NCBI GenBank assembly: GCA_016124895.1
Contig: WGMU01000019.1
Location: 62,001 to 126,000, forward strand
Source: a bacterium
Lineage (GTDB): Bacteria; Planctomycetota; Planctomycetia; Planctomycetales; Planctomycetaceae
DNA length: 64,000 bases
Direction: 5' to 3'
The notes beneath the pieces were generated by a model, which was not told the DNA's origin, did not search any database, and saw only the letters and a program-made list of their open reading frames with translations. A program made the translations under genes and the position numbers. This document shows positions 12,929 to 35,002 of the stretch, in pieces. Every line of letters starts with the position of its first letter. Position 1 is the first letter of the stretch.

Positions 12929-12943
12929 TGGCACATTCTTTGC
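12929..12943 (+). promoter_or_regulatory. Sigma-54 -24/-12 promoter of the ANTAR/NtrC regulator pair
   Basis: TGGCACATTCTTTGC is a full match to TGGCAC-N5-TTGC. It ends 94 bases before the start of the ANTAR regulator. A TGTGC-N8-GCACA dyad (12857-12874) is centred about 90 bases before the expected start of transcription, a usual enhancer distance. Confidence 0.85.
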
Positions 12944-13037: not shown

Positions 13038-13625
13038 ATGGGTGAACCTCTCAAAATCGTCGTGGCCGATGACGAAGTCGACATGCGCGACTTCTACCGG
13101 TCGATCCTGTCCGGTCTGGGACACACTGTAACGGCCGTCGCCAGCACGGGCCGTGAACTTGTTGAGGCGTGTGCCGCAGAAATGCCGGACCTGATCGTGA
13201 CCGATATCCGGATGCCTGAACTTGACGGGCTCGAAGCGCTGCGTGAAATCACACGGCTGGGCCGTCCGGTGCCCGCGATTGTCGTCTCGGGGTTTCATGA
13301 CGACGAGTTCATCCAGCGGGCGCAGCAGGAGTGCGTGCTCGCTTATCTCGTCAAGCCAGTCCGGGCTTCTGATCTCGAACCAGCGATCAAGCTCGCCCGG
13401 CAGCGGTTCCGCGAGATGCAGGCACTGCAGCAACAGGCGGACGATCTGCGACAGGCGCTGGAAGACCGCAAGCAGATCGAACGTGCAAAAGGGATACTGA
13501 TGGACCGCAGCGGCCTGTCCGAAAGTGACGCCTTCAAGCGGCTGCAGAAACTGTCGAACGACCGCAATCAGAAACTCGTCGAAATTGCCCGCGCGATCAT
13601 CACGGCCGAAGAAGCATTTGCTTAA
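13038..13625 (+). CDS. Response regulator with receiver and ANTAR RNA-binding domain
   Basis: 195 residues, the AmiR/NasT type. The receiver (about 5-120) has the acidic pair VVADDE, phospho-acceptor Asp in LIVTDIRMPELDG, Ser in VVSGF, and Lys in LVKPVRA. A coiled stretch (ALQQQADDLRQALEDRKQIE) leads to an ANTAR domain with IERAKGILMDRSGLSESDA and a final helix EIARAIITAEEAF. ANTAR domains bind two-hairpin RNA elements and prevent transcription termination. A perfect sigma-54 promoter lies upstream, and the NtrC-type regulator begins 14 bases after its stop, so the two are one operon. No cognate histidine kinase is visible in the window. Confidence 0.95.
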   Translation: MGEPLKIVVADDEVDMRDFYRSILSGLGHTVTAVASTGRELVEACAAEMPDLIVTDIRMPELDGLEALREITRLGRPVPAIVVSGFHDDEFIQRAQQECVLAYLVKPVRASDLEPAIKLARQRFREMQALQQQADDLRQALEDRKQIERAKGILMDRSGLSESDAFKRLQKLSNDRNQKLVEIARAIITAEEAFA

Positions 13626-13639
13626 TATGCAGCGAGTTG

Positions 13640-15031
13640 ATGATGGAACCAGGCCTTGGATCACCGATGACTACACCCGCTGAAAAACCCATCAACCTGC
13701 TGCTCGTCGAAGACGATGACGAATTTCGCGAGACGTGCGCATTGTGGATGTCCCGCAAGGGGCACAAAGTCACTGAAGCCAGTGACGCGCACGTGGCACT
13801 GCAGCTTTGTCAGACGAAACATTTTGACGTCGCCGTCGTCGACCTGAATATGCCCGGAATGAACGGTCTGGAGTTGCTCGACCGGTTGCAGGGCGACCAG
13901 ATCGAAATGCAGGTCCTGATGCTGACCGGGCAGGCGTCAGTCGACACTGCTGTCCAGGCAATGAAACTCGGCGCGTACGATTATCTGTCGAAACCGTTTC
14001 CTCTGCCCGAGCTGGAAAAACGCTGCCGGCTGGCCTTTGAACGCGGATGTCTGCAGAAGGAAAACCAGCAGCTTAAGGCCGTCATTGAGCGAACACGACC
14101 GCCGGTGCGGATGATCGGCCAGTCTCCGCCGATGTTGCAGGTGCAGCGGCTGATCGAACGGGCAGGACCGACCGACAAAGCGATTCTGATTCAGGGTGAA
14201 AGCGGGACCGGCAAGGAACTTGTCGCCCGTGGCCTGCAGGTCTGCAGCCTGCGAGCCGATCGTCCTTTCGTCACGATTAACTGTGCTGCGCTGCCGGAAC
14301 AGCTTGTCGAAAGTGAACTGTTCGGTCACGAAAAGGGTTCGTTCACGGGAGCAACGGCGACAAAGCCCGGCCTGTTCGAGGTTGCAGACGGCGGCACGAT
14401 TTTCATCGACGAAATCGGCGAGATGCCGCTCGGCCTCCAGCCAAAGCTGCTTCGTGTTCTGGAAGACGGCTCCCTGCGGCGAGTCGGTTCACATAAGGAA
14501 CGTCGTGTCAACGTGCGTCTGATCGCAGCGACGAATCGCAACCTCGGCGAGATGGCGGCGGGAGGCAAGTTCCGCGAAGACCTGTATTACCGCATCAATG
14601 TGCTGACGATTGAACTGGCCCCGCTGCGGGAACGCGAGGGCGACGTCGATCTTCTGATCGATCACTTCCTCGGTAAGGACTGGACAATCAGTCCGGAAGC
14701 GAAGAACGCCATGCGGGCCTATCACTGGCCAGGCAACGTCCGACAGCTCATCAACGTGATCGAACGGGCGACAATTCTGGCCGAGGACGGCTGCGTGCAG
14801 ATCTGCGACCTGCCGACCGAAGTCACTGGCAACTGCGAACGGATCATGCCCGCCGCGAAGATGTTTTCCAGCTCCGAAAAGCTCGAAGACCTGGAGCGGG
14901 CGCATGTCCTGCAGGTGCTGCATTCGCACGAGGGAAACAAGGCTCGAGCCGCACGGGCACTCGGCATCCACCGCCGCAAACTCTACCGTCTGCTCGAACG
15001 CTTCGAGATTCGGCCGGAAGAGTACGCGTGA
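13640..15031 (+). CDS. NtrC-family sigma-54-dependent response regulator
   Basis: About 463 residues. Receiver domain with LLVEDDDEF, phospho-acceptor Asp in VAVVDLNMPGMNG, LTGQAS and LSKPF; AAA+ domain with Walker A GESGTGKE, sigma-54 contact loop GSFTGA (Ser for Ala at position 2), Walker B TIFIDEIGEMP, and RIAATN/REDLYYRINV-type motifs; Fis-type helix-turn-helix at the C end (NKARAARALGIHRRKLYRLL). ATGs at 13640, 13643 and 13667 are all possible; none has a strong ribosome binding site. It is the natural candidate to activate the many -24/-12 promoters of the surrounding island. Confidence 0.95.
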   Translation: MMEPGLGSPMTTPAEKPINLLLVEDDDEFRETCALWMSRKGHKVTEASDAHVALQLCQTKHFDVAVVDLNMPGMNGLELLDRLQGDQIEMQVLMLTGQASVDTAVQAMKLGAYDYLSKPFPLPELEKRCRLAFERGCLQKENQQLKAVIERTRPPVRMIGQSPPMLQVQRLIERAGPTDKAILIQGESGTGKELVARGLQVCSLRADRPFVTINCAALPEQLVESELFGHEKGSFTGATATKPGLFEVADGGTIFIDEIGEMPLGLQPKLLRVLEDGSLRRVGSHKERRVNVRLIAATNRNLGEMAAGGKFREDLYYRINVLTIELAPLREREGDVDLLIDHFLGKDWTISPEAKNAMRAYHWPGNVRQLINVIERATILAEDGCVQICDLPTEVTGNCERIMPAAKMFSSSEKLEDLERAHVLQVLHSHEGNKARAARALGIHRRKLYRLLERFEIRPEEYA

Positions 15032-15311: not shown

Positions 15312-16313
15312 TCAAACCGACGGCGTTTCCTGACTGTCGCTCGCTGCAGGAAACTCGACCGGACAGACAAAGCCTTCAGGCTTAATGGCGAGAACGGAGC
15401 AGGTCAGATGGGCGAGCACTCGTTCGGCGGTATTGCCGAGCAGGATGCCACTGATGCCCGAACGGGCCTGCGTCCCCATCACGACCAGATCGATCGACAG
15501 TTTGTCGACAGTGTTGTGGATCAACTGATGCGGTGAGCCGGCTGCGATGTGACGACGCCCCGAATCGATCGACGAGTCGAGCTGCAGGCGGGTCAGAGTG
15601 TCGTTCAGTTCGCGCTCAGCATCGGCATGAACCTTCGAGCGATACTGTTCGAGATCGTTGACTGGAATGATCAGGTCGCGCAGTTCGGACTCATAGTGGT
15701 ACTCGATCACGTGGAGAATATGCAGCTCCGCCTGTAACTGCTGAGCGAGCTGGTCGCCGAGCCGGACTGCTTCGTCGGCGGTTGGTGAGAAATCCGTCGG
15801 CACAAGAATCCGCCGAACCATACCGTCCTCGACGGGCGACGTGACCCAGACGGGGCACGGGCACTTGCGCAACAGGCGTCTCCCCGTATTTCCAAGCAGA
15901 ACCCGGCCGAGAACGTGCCGACGATGACTGCCGACCAGAACGAGATCATAGTTTCCGAAGACGGCCTCACGCAGCAGCTCCATCCACGGCGTTCCGGTCG
16001 TCTGAATCCAGTTGGTGTCAATTCCCGCCTGCCGCGTCTCGTCGGTCAGGGTTGCCAGACGCTGCTCCGCCTGTTCGTACATGGCGTCGAGTAACTCGGT
16101 GTAACGCTGCATTTCGGCAAGGTGCCGGGCGTCTGCATTCAGATCAAGACACGACATCAGCGACGCACAGAACGTGACGCTCGCTGAAGTATGACCGGCA
16201 ACCCACCGCGCCTTCTCAATCGCCGACCGCGTACTCGCCGAAAGCTCCGCGCAGATCGCGCCCGATTCCGAACACAGGTCAACCCCCACAAGAATCTTCC
16301 GAAACCGTTTCAT
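15312..16313 (-). CDS. Tandem-domain universal stress protein
   Basis: 333 residues with two UspA folds. Domain 1 (about 1-160) opens [12 protein letters not shown] and ends with [20 protein letters not shown]. Domain 2 (about 170-315) opens [17 protein letters not shown] and ends with the ATP-type loop [20 protein letters not shown]. Both keep the G-x2-G-x9-G/N-like nucleotide loop in modified form. Usp proteins respond to starvation, hypoxia and energy loss. A good sigma-54 promoter lies 61 bases upstream, divergent from the beta-CASP/LOG gene. Confidence 0.93.
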
Positions 16314-16374: not shown

Positions 16375-16389
16375 GCAAGCTGTGTGCCG
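16375..16389 (-). promoter_or_regulatory. Sigma-54 promoter of the tandem Usp gene
   Basis: On the minus strand CGGCAC-ACAGC-TTGC, nine of ten consensus bases with GG-N10-GC spacing. It sits 61 bases upstream of the Usp start codon. Confidence 0.75.
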
Positions 16390-16548: not shown

Positions 16549-16563
16549 GGGCACAAACCTTGC
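16549..16563 (+). promoter_or_regulatory. Sigma-54 promoter of the beta-CASP/LOG gene
   Basis: GGGCAC-AAACC-TTGC, nine of ten consensus bases with correct spacing, 175 bases before the start codon. It probably also drives the downstream P-type ATPase. Confidence 0.75.
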
Positions 16564-16738: not shown

Positions 16739-18943
16739 ATGAGACTGACTTTTCTGGGTGCAAACCGCCAGGTGACCGGCTCGCGATACTGTCTGGAAGC
16801 GAACGGTTCGCGCGTAATGGTCGACTGCGGGCTCGTCCAGGAGCGGGCGTTTCTCGATCGCAACTGGGAGCCGTGCTCGATCGACCCGAAGTCGTTCGAC
16901 GCGCTGCTGATCACGCACGCTCATATCGACCATCTGGGTCTGGTGCCGAAGTTCGTGAAGGACGGCTTCAAGAGCACGATCTATGCGACGCATCCGACCG
17001 TCGAGCTGGCCGACGTCATGCTCCGCGATTCCGCAAAGATTCAGGAAGAAGATGCGCACTACAAGCAGCGACGGCATCATCGTGAAGGGCGTCGCGGCCG
17101 GCATCCGGAAGTGCCACTGTACACGACTGACGACGTCGTTAAGGCACTGCCGCTGTTTGAGGGTGTTGATTATCTCGAACCGGTCCACGTGGCCAAAGGC
17201 ATCACAGCGACCTGGTACGACGCCGGACATATTCTTGGTTCGGCGATGATCGAAATCGCAGTGACTGAAGGCGGTGAGAGACGGACGATTGTTTTCTCGG
17301 GCGATATCGGCCAGCGGGATAAGCCGCTGATTCATGATCCGTCGTACTTCCGGTACGCCGATTATGTCGTCATGGAGTCGACATACGGCGACCGCGAGCA
17401 CGAGCACAACGGCGACATCGAAACGCAACTGGAAAAAATCGTCACCGATACCGTCGCCCGCGGTGGCAACGTTGTGATCCCCGTCTTCGCCGTCGAACGC
17501 GCACAGGAGCTGATGTACTACGTGAGCCGCCTGGTCCATGCCAACCGGATCCCGGACATCCCGGTCTTCCTGGACAGTCCGATGGCGTCCGACGTGACGG
17601 CCATCTTCCGCAAGCATCGAAACTGGCTCGACGACGAAACGCGGGAACTGATTCAGTCGCACGAGCCCCCGCTGCAGTTTCCGGGATTGCGGATCACACG
17701 GTCGACGGAAGAGTCGATGGAGATCAACCGGATCATCACCCCGTGCATCATTATGGCACCGGCGGGGATGTGTAACGCTGGCCGGATCAAGCATCATCTG
17801 CGGCTGAATATCGGCCGTGATGAATCGACGATCGTCTTCGTCGGGCATCAGGCAAAAGGGACGCTGGGGCGTCGCATTCTCGACGGCGAACGCGAAGTGC
17901 GGATTCACGGCCGGTCGCTCCGCGTCTATGCGAAGATCGAACGGATTGACGGTCTGTCGGCACACGCGGATCGGAACGGTCTGGTCGAGTGGCTGAGTCA
18001 TTTTGAATCGCCGCCGCGCCGTCTGTTTCTGACACACGGTGAAGAAGAATCCTCGCTGGCACTGGCGCGGACCATTCGCGACCGGCTCGGCTGGGAAGCG
18101 ACAGTGCCTGAGTATGGCAATTCGATCGACCTCGCAGATGAACCGGTGAAGCGAACGGTTCTCGTCGCGGAACCGAAACCCGCAGCCGAAATCCCAACAC
18201 CGGCAACGCCCGTGACGCTGCCGGTTTCCCGACACGATTTCGAGTTTCTCGACAGCACGGCACGGCCGGGGACGGACTTCCTCTATCAGGACCCGTGGCG
18301 GGTCTTTCGGATGCAGAGCGACACGATTCAGGGCATCGAAGTGATGGCTCGCGCGCTGGAGGGAAGACGCCGTTCAATCGCCGTGTTTGGCAGTGCGCGA
18401 CTGCCCGATAGCGATCCCGTTTACGCACTGGCGCGTGAGACCTGTCGCCGGCTCGGTGAATGCGGTTTCGTAACCATTACCGGAGGCGGGCCGGGCGTGA
18501 TGGAAGCTGCGAACCGCGGCGCTCGTGACGCCGGCACACTCTCAATCGGATTAAACATCGACCTGCCCCATGAACAGCATCTCAATCCGTACTGCGATGT
18601 CAGCTACACGTGCCGATACTTCTTTGTGCGAAAGATGCTGTTTGCCAAGTATGCCCGGGCCTTTCTGATTTTCGCGGGTGGCTACGGCACAATGGACGAG
18701 CTGTTTGAAGCGCTCACGCTGATTCAGACCGAACGGCTGGCAGGCTTTCCAGTCATCCTGATCGGCAGCGACTACTGGAATCCGCTGGTGAGCTGGCTAC
18801 GCTCGACGATGTACGCTCACGGCTGCATTTCGGAAACCGACCTCAGTCGTTTCGTCGTACTTGACTCGCCTGAAGACGTGGTCGCGGAACTCGAAGCCTG
18901 CATTTCGGATAACGGTCATACGGCGGCTGCCGCGGAAGGCTGA
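16739..18943 (+). CDS. Beta-CASP metallo-beta-lactamase ribonuclease fused to a LOG-family domain
   Basis: 734 residues in one frame. Residues 1 to about 460 are a complete beta-CASP nuclease of the CPSF73/YSH1 type: MVDCGL, HAHIDHLG, YDAGHILGSAM, FSGDIG, MESTYGDREHE, PAGMCNAGRIKHHL and GLSAHADRNGL supply the metal ligands and motifs A-C. A Pro/Ala/Thr linker leads to a LOG domain from about 510: the DPWRVFRMQ lead-in, SIAVFGSARLP, TITGGGPGVMEAANRGA, the Arg-Lys pair in FFVRKML, and AGGYGTMDELFE in place of the usual PGGxGTxxE. LOG enzymes release nucleobases from nucleoside monophosphates. A nuclease joined to a nucleotide phosphoribohydrolase suggests RNA or nucleotide salvage under stress. 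The ATPase gene follows after 34 bases. Confidence 0.93.
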   Translation: MRLTFLGANRQVTGSRYCLEANGSRVMVDCGLVQERAFLDRNWEPCSIDPKSFDALLITHAHIDHLGLVPKFVKDGFKSTIYATHPTVELADVMLRDSAKIQEEDAHYKQRRHHREGRRGRHPEVPLYTTDDVVKALPLFEGVDYLEPVHVAKGITATWYDAGHILGSAMIEIAVTEGGERRTIVFSGDIGQRDKPLIHDPSYFRYADYVVMESTYGDREHEHNGDIETQLEKIVTDTVARGGNVVIPVFAVERAQELMYYVSRLVHANRIPDIPVFLDSPMASDVTAIFRKHRNWLDDETRELIQSHEPPLQFPGLRITRSTEESMEINRIITPCIIMAPAGMCNAGRIKHHLRLNIGRDESTIVFVGHQAKGTLGRRILDGEREVRIHGRSLRVYAKIERIDGLSAHADRNGLVEWLSHFESPPRRLFLTHGEEESSLALARTIRDRLGWEATVPEYGNSIDLADEPVKRTVLVAEPKPAAEIPTPATPVTLPVSRHDFEFLDSTARPGTDFLYQDPWRVFRMQSDTIQGIEVMARALEGRRRSIAVFGSARLPDSDPVYALARETCRRLGECGFVTITGGGPGVMEAANRGARDAGTLSIGLNIDLPHEQHLNPYCDVSYTCRYFFVRKMLFAKYARAFLIFAGGYGTMDELFEALTLIQTERLAGFPVILIGSDYWNPLVSWLRSTMYAHGCISETDLSRFVVLDSPEDVVAELEACISDNGHTAAAAEG

Positions 18944-18977: not shown

Positions 18978-21803
18978 ATGCCCGAACATCCGCAAACGAA
19001 CTGGCACTGCCAGGATGCGCTCCAGACGCTGGCCGAGATGCACACGGACAGCGATCGTGGCCTGTCAAAACTGCAGGTGCGCGAGAGGCTGCAGCGTTCC
19101 GGGCCGAATGAACTGATCGACGCAGGTGGTCGCAGTCCGTGGCGGATCCTGTGGGAGCAGTTTGCCAGCTCGATGATACTTCTGCTCGTCGCCGCCGCTG
19201 GCGTCTCAGCCATGCTGGGCGAGGTGCGCGACGCGATCGCCATCGTCTGCATCATCGTGCTGAATGCAGTGCTCGGCTTCGGGCAGGATTACCGTGCCGA
19301 GCGAGCGCTCGCGGCGCTGAAAAAACTCAGCGTTCCGCGGGTGCGAGTGAAACGCGACGGATCCGTGTCCGAAATCGCGTCGACGCTGCTGGTTCCAGGC
19401 GACGTGATTCTGGTGGAAGCCGGCAACTCGGTCCCCGCTGACTGCCGCCTGCTGATGGCATCGAATCTAAGGACGCAGGAGGCAGCGCTGACCGGCGAGT
19501 CTGATTCCGTCGAAAAGCAGACAGCCGCGTTGACCGACAGGCAGGCTCCGCTGGGCGACCGGTCCAACATGCTATGGATGGGGACATCGGTGACGTATGG
19601 ACGCGGAACCGCAGTTGTCGTCGCGACGGGGATGTCGACGCAACTCGGTCGGATCGCTGACTCGCTGCATCGCGTTGTCCCGGAGCAGACACCTCTGCAG
19701 AAACGGCTCGGGCAGTTGGGCCGTTCGCTGGCCGTTGCTGCGATTGCGATTGTCGCGGTTGTCTTTGTACTCGGCGTTGCACGCGGTGAGGCTCCGAAGC
19801 TAATGCTGATGACGGCGCTCAGCCTCGCCGTCGCCGTTGTCCCCGAGGGGCTGCCTGCCGTCGCCACCGTCGCGCTGGCACTCGGTGCGCGGCGAATGTT
19901 TCAGCGCCACGCCCTCATTCGCAAACTGCCGGCAGTCGAAACGCTCGGTTCGGTCACTGTCATCTGCACGGACAAAACGGGCACACTGACACAGAATCGA
20001 ATGACCGTGACGGTACTCGATGTCGCAGGCACGCGGCTCGACCTGCCCAACGTGCCAACGGAGTCCGATGGTCAGTTTCAATTCGATACGACAACACAGA
20101 CAGCGATCGCAGACAGTTCGACCCTGTCGCTGCTGCTGTTGACCGGAAGTCTGTGCAACGATGCCGAGCTGACTGGCGACGCTGAACGTGACGGAGTTCC
20201 CACCGTAAGCGGCGAACCGACTGAATCCGCACTGGTCGTTGCGGCAGCTTCAGCCGGGCTTGAACTGACGACGCTGAGACAATTGCTGCCGCGCGTTGCG
20301 GAGGTGCCGTTCGACTCAGCCCGCAAACGGATGACAACAATTCACCGCACAGCAGGCTCGGCTGTGACAACTCGCGGTGACGGCAGACTTTCAACGACGG
20401 AACGTGCAGCAGCACCGCTGCTCGAACTCGACGAGTCGGATGCAATTGCGCTCTGCAAAGGAGCACCCGGCAGCCTGCTCGACATCTGCAGCGACGTCTG
20501 GGTCGACGACGACGTTCGCACGCTCGACGACCACTGGAGGGAAAAGATCAATGCAGCAGGTGACGAACTGGCGGGGCAGGGGATGCGCGTGCTCGCCTTT
20601 GCGTTTCGACCTCTGGACGAAGTGCCCGCTGCCGGTCACGAAGGTGATGTCGAGCAGCAGTTGATCTTTCTCGGCCTGATGGCGCTGATCGATCCGCCGC
20701 GACCTGAAGTTCGGAACGCCGTCGCCCGCTGCCGCACGGCAGGCATTCGACCGATCATGATCACGGGCGACCATCCGCTGACGGCGCTGCAGATCGCCAG
20801 AGAACTCGGCATTACGACGTCAGATAACGATGGCTCCACAGCAGGCCCAAGTGTTCTGACCGGTCGCGAGCTGACTGCGCAAACGCCGGCAGATCTGCGG
20901 GACGGAGTCGAGCACGTCGTTGTTTACTCGCGAGTTGCGCCGGCGGACAAGCTGCACATCGTGCAGGCTCTGCAGGCAAACGGGCAGGTCGTCGCAATGA
21001 CGGGTGACGGCGTCAACGACGCTCCCGCACTGCGGCAGGCACACGTCGGCGTGGCGATGGGGATCACCGGGACGGACGTTTCGAAAGAAGCTTCCGAAAT
21101 GGTCCTGCTTGACGACAACTTCGCGACGATCGTCAATGCCGTCGAGGAGGGCCGCGTCGTTTATGACAACATCCGCAAGTTCGTTCGCTACACAATGACC
21201 AGCAACGCGGGCGAAATCTGCGTCATGCTGTTCGGACCGCTGTTCGGGATGCCGCTGCCTCTGCGCCCGCTACAGATCCTGTGGGTGAATCTGGTGACAG
21301 ACGGTCTGCCAGGACTGGCTCTGGCTGTTGAACCCGGCGAGCGGGACACCATGCGCCGTCCACCGCGTCCGCCGAACGAGCACGTGCTGGGACGCGGGAT
21401 GGCGACCGATATTGTCTGGATCGGACTGCTGATGGGCGGCGTCTCGCTGCTGGCCGGCTCATTGTTCCACAGAGCGGACGACGTTTCGATCAGCAACCGG
21501 CAACAGACCATCGTCTTTACCGTGCTGACGCTTTCGCAGATGGGTAACGTTCTGGCGACTCGCTCCGACCGCAACCTGCTCTTCCGGATTGGTCTCTTCT
21601 CGAATCCGGCTCTCGTCGCCGCTGTGCTGCTGACGTTCGGACTGCAACTGGCCGTGATCTACCTTCCGCCGCTGCAGACTCTGTTTCACACGCAGTCCCT
21701 GAGCATGTCCGAACTGGCATGCTGCTTCGTGCTCAGCACTGTTGTGTTTGCGGCGGTCGAACTCAGAAAGTGGATCTGCTTTCGAGAATCTGATCGCGCG
21801 TGA
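18978..21803 (+). CDS. P2-type (calcium-like) cation-transporting ATPase
   Basis: 941 residues, about the usual length. N-terminal cation-ATPase domain ([15 protein letters not shown]), actuator loop [10 protein letters not shown], ion-site motif [21 protein letters not shown] in M4, phosphorylation site [16 protein letters not shown]-binding region (ALCKGAPG), hinge [22 protein letters not shown], and the six C-terminal spans. The PEGLP motif fits P2A/PMR1-like Ca2+ or Mn2+ pumps; the ion is not certain. The ATG at 18978 begins a normal N terminus; the frame is open earlier but overlaps the previous gene. Likely co-transcribed with the beta-CASP/LOG gene. Mycobacterial CtpF of the DosR regulon is a P2-type analogue. 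Confidence 0.94.
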
Positions 21804-22344: not shown

Positions 22345-23082
22345 TTACGTGCCGAAGAAGGGATGCGCTGTGAACCCGCCACGGCCGGCACTCTCGCGGA
22401 AACGGTGCCAGCTTTGAGCGATCCGCGCATCTTCTTCCTGCTGCAGCAGTTCGCTCAGCCAGTCGTCGGTTTCCTGCAGGCGGACGCCCAGAATTCCAGC
22501 CGCGTTCATTGCAATCTTCCACGCGACGGGACGCGATGCCTGCAGAAGTTCATCGAAGCCGGCTCGTGGGATGGCGAGCAACTCGACATCATTGACGGCG
22601 GTTGCTTCGGCCGCGTGCGAACCTCCGGAGAAGAACGAGCTTTCGCCGAAGACGTCCCGCTCACCAATCTGCATGATGTGTGCCCCGCCAACACCTGCGG
22701 ACGGCAGCCGCAGCTCGATGTCGCCGTTCAGGATGATGCACAGGCACGCGTTCTGACTGCCCTGCTCAAAAATGACATCATCCGCCGCGTAACGTCGGAT
22801 TTCTCCACAGCCAGCCAGCTCGGCCAGCTCTTCATGAGTCAGACCGTCAAGCAACGGAACCTCGTTGAGCAGCGATACCGGAATGCCGCCAGCGAGCTGG
22901 GCGGTCGGAGCAATCGGCGCGGTGTCGGCACGCTCAAGAACGACAAGAGCGGCCGGAAGCTCACCTGCTCGGGCAGCCGTTTCCAGCGGCATCTCGCGGG
23001 ATGGCTTCCAGCCGCGCACGAGCAACTGGTTAACCCTTTCGACGTTTCCTGCCGTCACAACTTCATAACGGTAAATCGACAT
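22345..23082 (-). CDS. Cyclic-nucleotide-binding-domain protein without DNA-binding domain
   Basis: 245 residues; GGGAGG precedes the ATG. An N-terminal segment (YRYEVVTAGNVERVNQLLVRGW) leads to a CNB beta-barrel at about 75-200 (LLNEVPLLDGLTHEELAEL, VIFEQGSQNACLCIILNGDIEL, DVFGESSFFSGGSHAAEATA). In the phosphate-binding cassette the Arg that normally grips the cyclic phosphate is replaced by His (SHAAE instead of xRAA), so it may not bind cAMP classically. A short helical C terminus replaces any helix-turn-helix, so a direct transcriptional role is unlikely. It has its own weak sigma-54-like element right after the hsp20 terminator. Confidence 0.85.
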   Translation of the reverse strand: MSIYRYEVVTAGNVERVNQLLVRGWKPSREMPLETAARAGELPAALVVLERADTAPIAPTAQLAGGIPVSLLNEVPLLDGLTHEELAELAGCGEIRRYAADDVIFEQGSQNACLCIILNGDIELRLPSAGVGGAHIMQIGERDVFGESSFFSGGSHAAEATAVNDVELLAIPRAGFDELLQASRPVAWKIAMNAAGILGVRLQETDDWLSELLQQEEDARIAQSWHRFRESAGRGGFTAHPFFGT

Positions 23083-23218: not shown

Positions 23219-23689
23219 TCACGACTTGATGGCGACGCGATGCGTCTTGTCGGTTTCCACCTTCGGCAGCGTGACAGTCAGCACGCCATCCCTGTATTCC
23301 GCCGCCACTTCGGACTCCTTAACGCTGCAGGGCAGAGCCACGCTGCGCTGGAACGATCCGCTCCGGCGTTCAACCCGGTGATACTTCTTCTCTTTGTCTT
23401 CTTCCTTCTTTTCTTCTTCGTGCTTTCCGCTGATGGTCAACGTGTCGCCACGAACTTCGATCGCGATGTCTTCGGCGGCCATGCCGGGCACATCCATTTT
23501 GACTTCGAGCGTGCCGTTGCTTTCCGTGAGGTCGAGCGATGGCAGTCTCTCAGTCACCGGCCATTCCGCATCCCAGCCCTCACTGAAGCGTCTGAACATC
23601 TCGTCCATATCACGACTCAGCGCACCAAAGGGATACCCGGAAAACAGACTCTGAAGACCACGCGGTCCTCGGCGAATGAGAGTAGACAT
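23219..23689 (-). CDS. Hsp20/alpha-crystallin family small heat shock protein
   Basis: ATP-independent holdase chaperone. 156 residues from an ATG with a strong GGAGGA eight bases upstream; the frame runs on upstream to 23917 but the sequence there is not family-like. The N-terminal arm (SLFSGYPFGALSRDMDEMFRRF) precedes an alpha-crystallin domain at about 48-145 (LDLTESNGTLEVKMDVPGM, GDTLTISGKHE, the acidic/Lys loop EEEKKEEDKEKK, YRDGVLTVTLPKV) and a short VAI tail motif. A sigma-54 promoter lies 102 bases upstream. HspX/Acr of the mycobacterial DosR regulon is a family relative. Confidence 0.95.
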   Translation of the reverse strand: MSTLIRRGPRGLQSLFSGYPFGALSRDMDEMFRRFSEGWDAEWPVTERLPSLDLTESNGTLEVKMDVPGMAAEDIAIEVRGDTLTISGKHEEEKKEEDKEKKYHRVERRSGSFQRSVALPCSVKESEVAAEYRDGVLTVTLPKVETDKTHRVAIKS

Positions 23690-24196
23690 GGCTAATTCCT
23701 CCATTCTGAACCCATCAGACGCCGCCTCAATCGCCCCGTGCGACCGAGACGTCTGAGTGTCGCCCTGAAGGCTCCACGGCTTGATTTCTGAGCAGAACGC
23801 GTGCCGAATCGAAAGCCGAATCGAACACTCGATGCGTGACCGACCGCGACTCACAGGCACGACCCGGCCACTGGCTGAAAGCAGTCGCCTCGATTCCCTT
23901 CCCGGTCGCAGTATCACTGTCGGAAGCAGTGGTTAAGCAGAAGCGAGGGCCGAGTGGCCACAACGAAAGACTCAAGCCAGCGTCACCAGCGGAGTGGTGG
24001 CGTGCAGTACGTGCCCTTATCCGGCCGATTCCGGAACTGTCTCGCCGCGCATTTCTGGATCGGTCCGATCCACACGTCGGTCGCAAGAGGGTTCAATGTG
24101 CCTGAAAAGCGGTCATCCAGCGTCTGCGACAGTCACCCCTCAATTTCGACGCCCAGGCTACAGTCGTCAGGGCTCTGAAGGCACTATTGAAAAGGC
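23690..24196. other. Hsp20 leader and upstream gap
   Basis: This 507-base gap holds the hsp20 leader and promoter. A 7-bp dyad TCAGACG/CGTCTGA (23715-23721 and 23750-23756) lies in the predicted untranslated leader and could fold in the mRNA. No CIRCE (HrcA) element is visible. From 23810 to 24196 I see no gene. Confidence 0.5.
23792..23806 (-). promoter_or_regulatory. Sigma-54 promoter of hsp20
   Basis: On the minus strand CGGCAC-GCGTT-CTGC, eight of ten consensus bases and correct GG-N10-GC spacing, 102 bases before the start codon. Confidence 0.7.
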
Positions 24197-24532
24197 CTAT
24201 GGCTGGCAGAGCCTTGCTACGCGGAGCTGATTGTTGAGGCTCTCAACGCCATCGAGCGGCATGACGGCTGACGTCGCCACCTGCTTGTGGTAATAGCAGC
24301 TCACAATCCCCTTCAGAGTGACAGCGCCTGATTCAACCAGAACCTCCACAGCGTGCAGTCCCCCGTAGCCGGTTTCGCGCAGCGCGGACTGTACACGGGA
24401 CGCGAGCCAATCCGGATTCGGTCCTGGGACAACCGCAGATTCATCCGCCGCTTGTTCGACAGGCAGGACATGGGGACGTGGACGGCTCAAAGACCGAGTT
24501 GTCCGTAAACCGGACATCGCCAGCGTCGTCAT
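24197..24532 (-). CDS. BON-domain protein
   Basis: 111 residues from the chosen ATG; GAG about nine bases before it. After about 45 residues without recognisable domain there is one BON domain (LASRVQSALRETGYGGLHAVEVLVESGAVTLKGIVS-type pattern, ending LRVARLCQP) with the conserved Gly of the G-x-V-x-L-x-G strand. BON domains bind phospholipid or peptidoglycan-linked ligands; many are osmotically or stress induced. No signal peptide is obvious. The frame is open upstream to 24736 but contains no recognisable domain. Divergent from the alcohol dehydrogenase, each with its own sigma-54 promoter. Confidence 0.82.
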   Translation of the reverse strand: MTTLAMSGLRTTRSLSRPRPHVLPVEQAADESAVVPGPNPDWLASRVQSALRETGYGGLHAVEVLVESGAVTLKGIVSCYYHKQVATSAVMPLDGVESLNNQLRVARLCQP

Positions 24533-24678
24533 AGAGTTCTCGCAGTTTCGGAAACGTGTCTTATTGATGCCTGTGGCAGAAGCCCGCAGATGCGATCCGA
24601 AAACGAGCAAAACTGTTCGTTCGACTTGCGCGCTATCGCACCAGTGGAGTTCTCCTGCAGGCTGAGTGGAGTCGGTCA

Positions 24679-24693
24679 GCAAAAGTGGCGCCA
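24679..24693 (-). promoter_or_regulatory. Sigma-54 promoter of the BON gene
   Basis: On the minus strand TGGCGC-CACTT-TTGC, nine of ten consensus bases, 146 bases upstream of the start codon. Confidence 0.75.
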
Positions 24694-24730
24694 CTGTCGT
24701 TTGAAAATTGAGTTCTTCGTATCCCGGATG

Positions 24731-24752
24731 CTGCAAAGCACTGCATTTGCAG
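24731..24752. promoter_or_regulatory. Dyad between the BON and ADH promoters
   Basis: CTGCAAA and TTTGCAG form a perfect 7-bp dyad with an 8-base spacer midway between divergent -24/-12 elements. It could be a shared activator site; this rests on position alone. Confidence 0.35.
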
Positions 24753-24894: not shown

Positions 24895-25926
24895 ATGAAG
24901 GCGATGGTGCTCTACGGGATGCACTCGCTAGCAGAGAGCGACGAGCCTCTCCGACTGGCTGATCTGCCCGTCCCTGAACCGAGTACCGGCGAAGTGTTAC
25001 TGCGCGTCTCAGTGTGCGGCGTCTGTCACACTGAGCTGGACGAAATTGAAGGCCGCACACCGCCGCCGTCTTATCCTGTCGTACCCGGCCACGAAGTCAT
25101 CGGCCGCGTCGAACGGCTCGGCCGCGGCGTCTCACTGCTGCACGAAGGGCAGCGCGTCGGCGTCGGCTGGATCCACTCGTCAAGCGGCGACGTGTTCGAA
25201 AATCTCAGCCCGCAGTTTCGAGCGACCGGACGAGACGTCAACGGTGGCTATGCCGAGTTCATGACCGTTCCCGAAGCCTACGCGTACCCGATTCCCGAGG
25301 TCTTCTCCGATGCGGAGGCGGCGCCGTTGCTGTGTGCCGGCGCGGTCGGTTACCGAGCCCTCAAGCTGACCAACCTGTGCGATGGCCAGCGGCTCGGCCT
25401 GACGGGATTCGGCGGGTCTGCGCATATCGTTCTGCAGCTTGCCAGACAGCGGTTCCCGAACTCGCCCGTTTACGTGTTCGCCCGCGACGCCGCTGCCCGC
25501 GACTTCGCCAGGCAACTCGGCGCCGTCTGGGCCGGCAATACGGATGACCGACCGCCGGAACTGCTCAACGCCATCATTGACACAACGCCCGTGTGGAAGC
25601 CGGTTGTTGAAGCGCTTGCCTGCCTGGCACCCAACGGCCGTCTGGTCATCAACGCGATTCGTAAAGAGAACCAGGACATCCAGGAGCTGACTCGACTGAG
25701 CTACCACGAGCATCTGTGGATGGAGCGGGAAATCAAAACGGTCGCCAACGTCACGCACTTCGACATCCGCGAGTTCCTGCCACTGGCCGCCGCGATCCCC
25801 ATCCGTCCGGAAGTCGAGACCTACCCGCTCGAAGCCGCCAATCAGGCACTCGTCGACCTCAAGCGTAAACCGGTCCGCGGTGCGAAAGTGCTGATCGTCA
25901 ATCCCGCAGCGACATCCAACCGCTGA
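24895..25926 (+). CDS. Zinc-binding alcohol dehydrogenase (TIGR02822-like) lacking the structural zinc loop
   Basis: 343-residue medium-chain dehydrogenase/reductase, probably oxidising alcohols or reducing aldehydes with NAD(P). AAGGAA precedes the ATG. The catalytic zinc site is intact (VCGVCHTELDE with Cys44; PGHEVIGRVERLG with His66; Cys in LLCAGAVGYRALKL). The Rossmann turn is present in modified form (LTGFGGSAHIV). The segment that normally carries four structural-zinc Cys is shortened here to WIHSSSGDVFENLSPQF (about 92-108) with no Cys at all; Ser stands at two of the expected positions. The following TGRDVNGGYAEFM is normal. The enzyme is otherwise well conserved, so it probably folds without structural zinc. 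Driven by its own sigma-54 promoter. Confidence 0.92.
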   Translation: MKAMVLYGMHSLAESDEPLRLADLPVPEPSTGEVLLRVSVCGVCHTELDEIEGRTPPPSYPVVPGHEVIGRVERLGRGVSLLHEGQRVGVGWIHSSSGDVFENLSPQFRATGRDVNGGYAEFMTVPEAYAYPIPEVFSDAEAAPLLCAGAVGYRALKLTNLCDGQRLGLTGFGGSAHIVLQLARQRFPNSPVYVFARDAAARDFARQLGAVWAGNTDDRPPELLNAIIDTTPVWKPVVEALACLAPNGRLVINAIRKENQDIQELTRLSYHEHLWMEREIKTVANVTHFDIREFLPLAAAIPIRPEVETYPLEAANQALVDLKRKPVRGAKVLIVNPAATSNR

Positions 25927-26485: not shown

Positions 26486-28060
26486 TCACGACAACTTCTC
26501 CAGAACTCGCTGCAGACCGGCAGCGGTGCTGCGTTCGTCTGAAGTATCAACAACAACAATCTGGCTCGATGGTTCGTGCTCGATTCCGGTATCCCGACGT
26601 CGTTGCTGCTGCAGTACAGCAACGTTCGCATCCGAAGCGTCGTGGTCTGACTGTTCGCGCACCGCAACTCGTGCCGTCAGAACGTCGTCCGGAGCCGAAC
26701 ACGCAACGATCAGAAACGGCACGCGCAGTTCCACTGCGAGCTGCCGGAACGGTTCTCGCTTATCAGCCGACAGGAACGCCGCGTCGACAACGACTGGAAA
26801 CCCGGCCGCAATCACTGTTCGTGCCAGCTCGATCAGTCGGTCGTATGTGCGGGCATTGGCCTCGGCCGAGTACAGCTCTGCCGCCGCTGTTCCGGTCACA
26901 CGGTCTGTTTCGTCCAGACCGAACAGCCGCTTCCGCTCAACATCCGACCGAATCCGAATTGCCGCGCTGCGTTCGAGAATCTGTTCGGCGAAGTGTGTTT
27001 TCCCACTGCCCGAAAGCCCGTGCATGATCAGCAGAGCCGGGGGTGATCGCTCGGCATCGTGGTCAGCAACGGACAGATACATGCCAAATTCGCGGCGCAG
27101 TGTCCGGCGCTGCAATTCCGACGGCATGTCGCCGCTGAGCCGGATCAGGTCGACCTTTGCCCGCACCATCGCTCGATAGACCAGATAAAACCGCAGGACC
27201 GCGAGGCCCGCATAATCGCCAGTCCGCTCAAGATACCGATTGAGCAGCCGCCGCGCGAGCTGCGGCTCGCCGTGCTCTTCGAGATCCATGACGAGGAACG
27301 CGATCTCGCTGATCACGTCACTCCAGCGAAAGCCCGCATTGAATTCCACACAGTCAAACAGGCACGGCCCGGTGTCGAGTTCGACGATATTCCCAAGATG
27401 CAGATCACCGTGGCACTCGCGGATAAAGCCGCCGTTTCGCCGTTGTTCAAAGACACCACTCAGTCGCTCAGCCTCTGTCTGCGTCCATTTCCGCAAGTGT
27501 CGAATCTCGCCCGAATACGCTGCTTCGTCACCTGCGTGTTCCTCGATCGAAACAAAATTCGCCAGCGCGTCGCCCCGGATGCCGTCTGCCCGGCCATAAG
27601 GCGAGTCAGTCTCGGCGGCCTGAAGCGACAGATGGAAATCGGCGATGCGTTCCGCCAGCGCGTCAATCTGCAGAGGCTCAAGCCGTCCCGCGACGACAAT
27701 CCGCGACAGCAGTCTCTCGTCATCAAAGCGGTGCATTCTGACCGCATACTCGATCGGCTCGCCATCGCCGCCGATACTTGGAGCCTCCCCATTGCCAGAG
27801 ATCGGGACAACGTCGAGATACAGTTCAGCCGCCGTCCGCCGGTTCAGTCGCAGCTCTTCCTCGCAGAAGTGCTTTCGCTTTGCGAGCGTCGAAAAATCCA
27901 GAAAGTCGAACCGTACCGGCTTCTTGATCTTCCAGGCGAAGTCGCGTGTCAGCAGGACCCATGAAATATGAGTTTCAATCATGCGCACCGCCTCCGGACG
28001 ATCCGGCCAGATTGCCGGATTCTGCAGCGAGTCGATCCGGATTGCGGTCCGCGTGCTCAT
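26486..28060 (-). CDS. Fused APH-like kinase and AAA/P-loop kinase (COG2187-COG0645)
   Basis: About 524 residues from the chosen start; ATG 27 bases upstream and GTG at 28147 are alternatives. The N-terminal part (about 1-330) is an aminoglycoside-phosphotransferase-like domain with Lys in AWKIKKPVRFDFLDFS, Brenner motif HGDLHLGNI and metal motif FDCVEFN. The C-terminal part (about 345-520) is a small P-loop kinase with Walker A MHGLSGSGKTHFAEQ and SDVERKRLFG, resembling gluconate-kinase-like ATPases. The same fusion is Rv2004c of the mycobacterial DosR regulon, whose function is unclear. A sigma-54-type promoter sits 53 bases upstream, divergent from the 28305 gene. Confidence 0.9.
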   Translation of the reverse strand: MSTRTAIRIDSLQNPAIWPDRPEAVRMIETHISWVLLTRDFAWKIKKPVRFDFLDFSTLAKRKHFCEEELRLNRRTAAELYLDVVPISGNGEAPSIGGDGEPIEYAVRMHRFDDERLLSRIVVAGRLEPLQIDALAERIADFHLSLQAAETDSPYGRADGIRGDALANFVSIEEHAGDEAAYSGEIRHLRKWTQTEAERLSGVFEQRRNGGFIRECHGDLHLGNIVELDTGPCLFDCVEFNAGFRWSDVISEIAFLVMDLEEHGEPQLARRLLNRYLERTGDYAGLAVLRFYLVYRAMVRAKVDLIRLSGDMPSELQRRTLRREFGMYLSVADHDAERSPPALLIMHGLSGSGKTHFAEQILERSAAIRIRSDVERKRLFGLDETDRVTGTAAAELYSAEANARTYDRLIELARTVIAAGFPVVVDAAFLSADKREPFRQLAVELRVPFLIVACSAPDDVLTARVAVREQSDHDASDANVAVLQQQRRRDTGIEHEPSSQIVVVDTSDERSTAAGLQRVLEKLS

Positions 28061-28113
28061 CCCGTCAGTTCGCCCGATAAAAGACATCGTTGATTGAGCT
28101 AAAGATTCCGCGA

Positions 28114-28129
28114 GCAAACTCAATGCCGC
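28114..28129 (-). promoter_or_regulatory. Sigma-54 promoter of the APH/AAA kinase gene
   Basis: On the minus strand CGGCAT-TGAGT-TTGC, eight of ten consensus bases, full -12 element. Position is certain to within one base. Confidence 0.65.
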
Positions 28130-28239
28130 GTCGGAAAAGAGCCGCACCGCCGCCTTTCATTTGCCCTCAGAAGGGTGTTCAGCTTCCCCGCGCAGACGCG
28201 TTGAGACCCGGTTATGCTTGGCGCTGAATTCGAACATCG

Positions 28240-28254
28240 TGGCATCGCATTTGC
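28240..28254 (+). promoter_or_regulatory. Sigma-54 promoter of the 28305-29102 gene
   Basis: TGGCAT-CGCAT-TTGC, nine of ten consensus bases, 50 bases before the start codon. Confidence 0.8.
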
Positions 28255-33815: not shown

Positions 33816-34943
33816 TTACCCGAACCGCGGATCGGGTTCGAGGTCCGTGTTGAGGCGGTCGATGAGCTGTCTCAAGCGGCCGATGTGCCGACGGTCGAAA
33901 CGCATCCGCAGTCGCGGCAGGTGGCTGATGTGCGTCTCGTCGCTCTCGAATTCGTGCGTCGCCGACTTCTCGATGCGTCCCCGTGCCAGCAGGTCCTTGA
34001 AATCGTCGGTAAGCTGTTCGACGTACTCGTCCGACGGTTCGGCCCGCAGGCGCAGGACCAGACGATCGCGGATGTAGCGCATACTGTCATAGACGCGGTA
34101 AAAGTTCATGATCTCGTTGTAGGCCTCGTCAAGATCGTCGGTCACCAGAAACAGCGACATATCCTCAGGCGAGATCAACCCGGCCTCCAGAAACTGGCGC
34201 TCGACAAACTTCTGCCACTCTTTCCAGTACGACCCGCCCGGCTCGTCGATAAACACGATCGGCATCATGTCGCGCTTGCCGGTCTGGACCAGCGTCAGCG
34301 TTTCAAAGGCTTCGTCCTGAGTCCCGAAGCCGCCGGCAAACAGCGCGATCGCGTGAACCTCTTTGACGAACAGCAGCTTGCGCGTGAAGAAATACCGCAG
34401 GTTGATGAGCTTGCGGTCGCCCTCAATCACGGGATTCGCCCGCTGCTCGAACGGCAGCATGATGTTCACGCCCATCGCCATGTCGCGGCCGGCGCCGACG
34501 TGAGCCCCCTCCATGATGCCGCCACCGGCGCCGGTCACCACCATCCAGCCGGCATCGGCGAACAGCCGGCCGAAGTTCAACGCGTGCTGATACGCCGGTG
34601 CCTCGGACGGCGTGCGGGCCGAGCCGAACACCGTCACCTTCTTCGTCAGCCGGTAGTGAGAGAAGATCTTGAAGGCGTAGCGCAATTCACGCAGCGACCG
34701 CGAGAGAATCTTCAGATCGCCGATCGCGGTCTCGTCCTGTTCGAGCTTGTCGATCGTCGAGCGCAGGTCATTCAGCAGATCGTCCCGCGTGATGGGGCCG
34801 TGACGTCTGCCACGCCGCTGCGCCTCGTGCGTGCCTTCGTCGGCTGGCAGACTTTCGTCATCATCAGGACCAGCCTCGCCGGAGAGGTCAAACCCGGACC
34901 AGGACTGAGTAATGTCCGTGTCCGGGCTGTGGGGATCATCCAT
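33816..34943 (-). CDS. LOG-family Rossmann protein with long N- and C-terminal extensions
   Basis: 375 residues from the chosen ATG (ATG at 34964 is possible). An acidic N-terminal region (about 1-90) precedes the LOG domain at about 95-270: [35 protein letters not shown], the Arg-Lys in FFTRKLLF and [14 protein letters not shown], again with AGG for PGG as in the beta-CASP fusion. The C-terminal 110 residues ([22 protein letters not shown]..., [20 protein letters not shown]) are helical. LOG enzymes act as nucleotide phosphoribohydrolases. It is upstream of panC on the same strand; the STAS gene precedes it by 59 bases. Confidence 0.9.
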
Positions 34944-35002
34944 GAGGAAACCTCGCAGTCGCACGTTGATTCGTCAGGAAACCGGCGACCGGTCCAGTCC
35001 GC

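Follow-up and report, generated by a model that had tools for sequence, protein, structure and literature searches.

A beta-CASP RNase joined to a LOG domain

The window analysed here, a stretch of 64,000 nucleotides, contains one frame of 734 codons without a stop (16739-18943, + strand) in which a beta-CASP ribonuclease is followed by a LOG-family domain. This fusion gene lies within an island of approximately 18 kb of stress and regulator genes. The features of the island are as follows, with the basis of each in brackets:

12929..12943, +: exact sigma-54-like site TGGCACATTCTTTGC, upstream of the regulator pair (consensus scan)
13038..13625, +: response regulator with ANTAR domain (Pfam)
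13637..15031, +: NtrC-type sigma-54 activator with receiver domain (Pfam, NCBIfam)
15312..16313, -: tandem universal stress protein (USP), divergent from the fusion (Pfam Usp, twice)
16375..16389, -: sigma-54-like site CGGCAC-N5-TTGC, toward the divergent USP gene (comparable site in L064)
16549..16563, +: sigma-54-like site GGGCAC-N5-TTGC, toward the fusion (comparable site in L063 and L064)
16739..18943, +: fusion gene, 734 aa, beta-CASP RNase and type-II LOG (one frame in eight species)
16739..18133, +: metallo-beta-lactamase/beta-CASP/RMMBL RNase module, residues 1-465 (Pfam, TTHA0252 alignment, structure)
16916-16933, +: HAHIDH motif, residues 60-65 (alignment to TTHA0252)
18134..18274, +: variable linker, residues 466-512, predicted disordered (pLDDT <50 for 471-513)
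18275..18904, +: type-II LOG domain, residues 513-722, with lead-in helix 521-539 (DPWRVFRMQSDTIQG) (Pfam, NCBIfam, model)
18674..18700, +: AGGYGTMDE active-site motif, residues 646-654 (mapped to CgLOGII)
18978..21803, +: P-type Ca-ATPase-like gene, 34 nt downstream of the fusion (Pfam, NCBIfam)
22345..23082, -: cyclic-nucleotide-binding-domain protein (Pfam)
23219..23917, -: Hsp20 (Pfam)
24197..24736, -: BON-domain protein (Pfam)
24679-24693, -: sigma-54-like site at the BON gene (consensus scan)
24895..25926, +: zinc alcohol dehydrogenase, adh_fam_2-like, just below cut-off (Pfam, NCBIfam)

Pfam domains Lactamase_B_6, Beta-Casp (E 1.8e-39) and RMMBL were found within residues 1-457 and Lysine_decarbox/LOG at residues 588-717 (E 9.5e-31), and the NCBIfam model TIGR00730 matched residues 546-719 above its cut-off (123.2 vs 96.35). 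In a sequence search of solved structures, the best match of the RNase half was RNase TTHA0252 of Thermus thermophilus (PDB 2dkf/3iek; E 3.2e-86, residues 1-463), and those of the LOG half were the type-II LOGs 5zi9, 5wq3 and 1wek (E 2e-66 to 1e-55). AlphaFold2 gave a pLDDT of 60 from eight sequences; we instead used an 80-sequence alignment of relatives, with two plasmid rows left out, which gave a mean pLDDT of 90.4 and low confidence only at residues 471-513, 515-517 and the last residues. In VIA-align superpositions of this model, residues 1-465 covered all 431 residues of TTHA0252 (Z ~50, 1.7 A) and residues 514-725 aligned with 206 residues of the type-II LOG 5wq3 (Z 30.0, 2.0 A). Given the latter superposition, which begins at residue 514, the lead-in segment corresponds to the N-terminal hexamer-forming helix of type-II LOGs (521-539 in the model), a helix that shapes hexamers in CgLOGII and TtLOGII (PMC5379747). 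The sequence and model together describe an intact TTHA0252-type beta-CASP module and an intact type-II LOG, predicted to be tethered by a flexible linker of 40-90 aa. A preliminary description had read a full set of beta-CASP nuclease motifs and a full LOG domain, including its lead-in segment, in this one frame, and both readings are upheld by the domain models, the TTHA0252 alignment and the superposition on 5wq3.

The active-site residues of both enzymes are present. Beyond the HAHIDH motif, alignment to TTHA0252 located H164, D189, E213, H353, S407, H409 and H433, so that the beta-CASP signature is complete (HxHxDH, motif 3 His, motif 4 Asp, motifs A-C and the final-motif His). TTHA0252 residues H61, S378, H380 and H400, for which mutant structures exist, correspond to H62, S407, H409 and H433 of the fusion. 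In the LOG half, R155, K156, T175, D177 and E178 of CgLOGII align with R631, K632, T651, D653 and E654 (PMC5379747); E654 is the catalytic Glu, the catalytic Arg631 lies upstream of AGGYGTMDE, and D653 is the type-II Asp. The mapped catalytic positions of the RNase (including H60, H62, D64 and H65) and of the LOG are invariant in eight of eight fusions; the preliminary description had raised loss of catalytic residues across homologues as an objection, and none was seen.

The LOG motif deviates at one position from the strict PGGxGTxxE, as the window's clade carries AGGYGTMDE, in which A646 replaces the proline. This change is confined to the window's subclade, since L035 and L065-L067 have PGG, and it counts against the functional reading that we favour below. 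It need not inactivate the enzyme, because CgLOGII contacts phosphate through main-chain Gly/Phe/Gly and a Thr side chain (PMC5379747). Because the curated TIGR00730 cut-off is passed despite the AGG, we regard the C-terminal half as a LOG-family domain whose motif deviates and whose activity is putative.

Comparison with characterised relatives places each half in a known family. TTHA0252 matches the whole RNase half and has the same catalytic residues, but it is a stand-alone protein without a LOG domain. The type-II LOGs CgLOGII (5WQ3), TtLOGII (1WEK) and 5ZI9 share the lead-in helix, the catalytic Arg and Glu and the type-II Asp, whereas they are stand-alone hexamers with a PGG motif. PpnN (YgdH), a nucleotide 5'-monophosphate nucleosidase, belongs to the same reaction class and is likewise linked to stress (PMC6717881), yet it has PAG1/PAG2 gating domains and no RNase; the fusion scores 25.3 bits against the PpnN cut-off of 450. 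The nearest named beta-CASP families in NCBIfam are aCPSF1/FttA and Cas14 of type VII CRISPR. The former has N-terminal KH domains, and the fusion matches its model only from position 175 (326 vs 580 bits); the latter has a CRISPR-specific C-terminus, and the fusion reaches 416 bits against an equivalog cut-off of 800.

Stress genes and sigma-54-like sites around the fusion

The preliminary description had linked the fusion to stress, and the gene content around it (USPs, a Ca-ATPase, Hsp20, an alcohol dehydrogenase and an NtrC-type regulator) agrees with this. The Ca-ATPase-like gene is likely co-transcribed with the fusion; its listed start at 18978 is an in-frame ATG, and an earlier TTG lies at 18861. 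The order USP, fusion, Ca-ATPase is kept in L063 and L064, where the fusion and Ca-ATPase frames overlap, and TBK1r lacks the USP and Ca-ATPase neighbourhood. Other orthologous loci hold PPK2, a formate transporter and dehydrogenase, CBS proteins, glycogen-branching-like enzymes, DeoC and a Na/Pi transporter. A ribose-phosphate-consuming enzyme was not recognised in the window's island, no Rfam family matched in the window, and the open-access literature yielded nothing usable on a described USP/Hsp20/RNase cluster. The true start of Hsp20 is probably downstream of the listed one. Beyond these genes, the window encodes at 26486-28147 (-) a protein that combines APH kinase-like with AAA_33/zeta-toxin-like domains; the corresponding islands of L064 and G458 also encode it, at ~59% identity.

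We scanned for sigma-54-like sites using the consensus TGGCAC-N5-TTGC, with GG and GC (GG-N10-GC) required. The island contains five sites where 0.77 would be expected, and the other 45.5 kb of the window contain two where 2.8 would be expected. Two of the island sites face outward within the 425-bp gap between the USP gene and the fusion; this divergent pair recurs in L064, and L063 has one site facing the fusion. The fusions of L034, L065, L066 and L067 showed no such site upstream, and the promoter region contains no repeats. These consensus matches make it likely that, in the window's clade, the fusion is under sigma-54 control with the neighbouring NtrC-type protein, and the whole island may form one sigma-54 regulon. 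A further sigma-54-like site lies at 28240-28254 of the window, upstream of island genes. Separately, L064 has seven sigma-54-like sites compared to 0.7 expected, and more occur upstream of island genes in L064 and L254.

Distribution of the fusion and of unfused gene pairs

The same domain order, for which the preliminary description proposed a database search, occurs in frame in eight species: the window genome, L034/L062, L035, L063, L064, L065, L066 (an Aporhodopirellula aestuarii isolate) and L067 (TBK1r, a closed chromosome). The preliminary description had raised a stop or frameshift between the domains as an objection, and none of these species has one. A genome search found the fusion in five of 170 Pirellulaceae genomes, and it is restricted to one clade of this family. 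Among the fusions, the domains are 64-89% identical compared to 23-72% for the linker, which also varies in length. Codon-change counting, where dS was not saturated, gave dN/dS values of 0.09-0.18 for the RNase half and 0.04-0.16 for the LOG half, and strong purifying selection, as judged from these sequences, maintains both halves.

The fused proteins form one clade in the trees of both the RNase and the LOG halves. In the nearest outgroup, G406, the RNase that comes next in the tree (L036) and a nearby LOG lineage (L102) are separate genes on different contigs, which is likely the state before fusion. The fusion is not indispensable, given that it has been lost or has decayed in three loci. 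One of these, L068, keeps the RNase and a linker stub with the LOG gone. Of the other two, positions 8001-9490 of L070 (Stieleria sedimenti) hold an RNase with a deletion and a frame change and no LOG, and 1387-2013 of L104 (G517) hold an internally deleted remnant without the residues equivalent to 427-554; the breakage in both could be decay or assembly error. Besides the fusion, the window genome contains a stand-alone beta-CASP gene and two stand-alone LOG genes, which makes the fusion supplementary to the housekeeping set. A second LOG-like protein (382 aa, motif AGGFGTQDE) is encoded at 33816-34964 (-) of the window, ~15 kb downstream of the fusion, and scores just under the TIGR00730 cut-off; frames of 340-490 aa similar to it occur in most Pirellulaceae genomes searched.

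A phage origin was considered and rejected, since the phage records contained either the RNase half alone or a LOG as a protein of its own, and no joined pair was seen in them. Such records include three human faecal sequences deposited as bacteriophage (MT837678, MT835706 and MT838758), which encode a stand-alone beta-CASP protein ~43-44% identical to the RNase half, and Synechococcus phage S-CAM7, which encodes a predicted LOG protein.

Separate beta-CASP and LOG genes also adjoin in other bacteria. On a Hoeflea plasmid the RNase gene comes first and overlaps the LOG gene by 4 bp; on an Aureibacter plasmid the RNase is again first, with the LOG 82 nt apart; and on a Sulfitobacter plasmid the LOG comes first, with the RNase 41 nt apart. 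Among ~140 non-fused loci from four phyla, a LOG lay within 1.5 kb of the beta-CASP gene in 10, compared to ~0.37 expected from random placement with three LOGs per genome assumed; the probability calculated on this basis exaggerates the significance, since the loci are relatives rather than independent samples. By group, the counts were four of 26 in Alphaproteobacteria, three of 30 in Chloroflexota, three in Planctomycetota and none of 30 in Bacteroidota. In a LOG-centred survey of one alphaproteobacterial LOG subfamily, the RNase adjoined in seven of 30 loci, in five of them with a 4-bp overlap. Adjacency of beta-CASP and LOG genes is far above chance, and the pairs, often overlapping by 4 bp, span Alphaproteobacteria, Chloroflexota, Bacteroidota and other Planctomycetes. 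The two genes are nevertheless usually unlinked, and this, with the absence of pairs from the Bacteroidota sample of 30, counts against the functional reading that we favour.

The paired RNases fall in several parts of the RNase tree, and the sister RNases L125 and L156 differ in which gene comes first; both orders occur among unfused pairs. Although the tree summary gives one change for adjacency, this value contrasts adjacent with fused rows only; in the drawn trees, adjacent-pair rows stand at several places among stand-alone rows. In the LOG tree, the LOGs of alphaproteobacterial pairs fall in a different clade from the fused LOGs, and those of Aureibacter and G928 belong to yet others. 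Because the pairs are scattered in the RNase tree, draw on differing LOG clades and occur in both orders, linkage most likely arose more than once. The fusion is, in sequence terms, the Rosetta-stone form of this recurrent pairing, and on that argument the two enzymes would work in one process.

Two further arrangements were observed. In G121 (L249, 5693-10393), cydA, cydB, beta-CASP and LOG genes are consecutive on one strand, with the pair directly behind cydAB, an order that would link an unfused pair to a microaerobic oxidase. In six Chloroflexota genomes (G552, G877, G895, G904, G961 and G977), the beta-CASP match begins only at residue ~124; this short-match form lies ~5-13 kb from a LOG on the same contig in several genomes.

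A proposed route from RNA to free bases and ribose-5-phosphate

We tentatively favour, at somewhat less than even confidence, a model of stress-induced 5'-3' RNA decay to 5'-NMPs, from which the LOG half would then yield base and ribose-5-phosphate. A machine that commits RNA to these products is favoured because the product of the RNase would be the substrate of the LOG. Both activities have precedent: TTHA0252 is a 5'-3' exo-RNase (PMC4229858), AMP is hydrolysed by type-II LOGs, TtLOGII among them (PMC5379747), and BpLOG accepts AMP, GMP and CMP (PMC6864091). In this model, oxygen, energy or starvation stress would act as the trigger, and the island's NtrC-type regulator would probably switch on expression through the putative sigma-54 promoters, together with the USPs. 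The RNase half would trim RNA 5'-3', and might also cut internally, releasing 5'-NMPs beside the LOG active site. The lead-in helix would probably gather six RNase arms around a LOG core, where each NMP would be split into free base and ribose-5-phosphate instead of being re-phosphorylated. Hydrolysis of the NMPs would make RNA decay irreversible, with the ribose carbon passing to central metabolism and the bases to salvage.

NMP salvage through PpnN (PMC6717881) and ribose salvage from RNA in yeast (PMC4039369) both matter under stress. The yeast enzymes Phm8 and Pnp1/Urh1 follow a like logic, in which RNA breakdown feeds ribose phosphate in starvation (PMC4039369), but they are unrelated, use a nucleoside route and comprise several proteins. 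Several considerations count against the model, among them the lack of a recognised ribose-phosphate-consuming enzyme in the window's island and the loss or decay of the fusion in L068, L070 and L104. In addition, more genes respond to loss of TTHA0252 during log growth than during stationary phase (PMC4229858), and the substrate choice of a LOG is not readable from sequence, BpLOG having a link to 6-O-methylguanine (PMC6864091) and CgLOGII one to cytokinins (PMC5379747). The preliminary description had proposed coupled RNA degradation and nucleotide breakdown, or nucleotide signalling. The proposed coupling gains independent support from the recurrent separate gene pairs in other phyla; direct support for signalling was not found.

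It had also stated that the fusion was not known from described systems. Consistent with this, we found no report of a beta-CASP protein with a phosphoribohydrolase, nor of the pairing in fused or adjacent form, in the open-access literature; an earlier mention elsewhere is possible. What appears to be new is the recurrent adjacency of the genes and their fusion, each half being a known family. Both enzyme families are common and have so far been studied apart, and the fusion and pairs give bacterial LOGs, beyond cytokinins, and TTHA0252-type RNases a testable role in which the LOG acts on RNase products. If this is true, bacteria possess a dedicated pathway through which RNA is turned over to fuel and free bases rather than to nucleotide recycling. 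More broadly, though we regard this as doubtful, beta-CASP and LOG could constitute a widespread RNA-dismantling module that converts RNA to bases and ribose-5-phosphate under stress, with NMPs handed over directly in one hexameric particle, fused in Pirellulaceae and encoded by translationally coupled operons elsewhere.

The strongest rival, albeit an unlikely one, uses the same parts for clearance of modified or damaged nucleotides: the LOG would remove the base from prenyl, methyl or oxidised NMPs arising from RNA decay and so bar them from the NTP pool, with cytokinin-type bases from tRNA as a possible product. The location in a stress island suits this reading, as do the activity of characterised type-II LOGs on cytokinin nucleotides (PMC5379747) and the finding that BpLOG yields 6-O-methylguanine and alters oxidative stress sensitivity (PMC6864091). 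However, unmodified AMP or GMP is also a substrate of these LOGs, and no gene for tRNA modification was seen next to the fusion.

It is improbable that the LOG serves as a sensor or regulator, with nucleotide or alarmone binding controlling the RNase, or mainly as a hexamer scaffold with hydrolysis secondary. PpnN does provide an alarmone link for LOG-like enzymes (PMC6717881), and the hexamer-forming helix is conserved in the fusion. Yet Arg631 and Glu654, for which a pure scaffold would have no need, are unchanged in every fusion; the protein lacks the gating domains of PpnN, with the PpnN model far under its cut-off; and a pair encoded by two separate genes would offer no scaffolding in cis.

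We consider it similarly improbable that the fusion merely fixes the stoichiometry of independently working stress enzymes through co-expression, without substrate transfer. The long disordered linker means that the active sites need not face each other, and the parts are separate in G406 and the LOG lost in L068, but the repeated independent, often translationally coupled pairing suggests a shared pathway. Finally, an assembly or annotation artefact, conceivable for a window from a 195-contig assembly, was rejected as having a negligible chance, since in-frame orthologues occur in the finished TBK1r chromosome, in the Aporhodopirellula isolate and in several independent MAGs.
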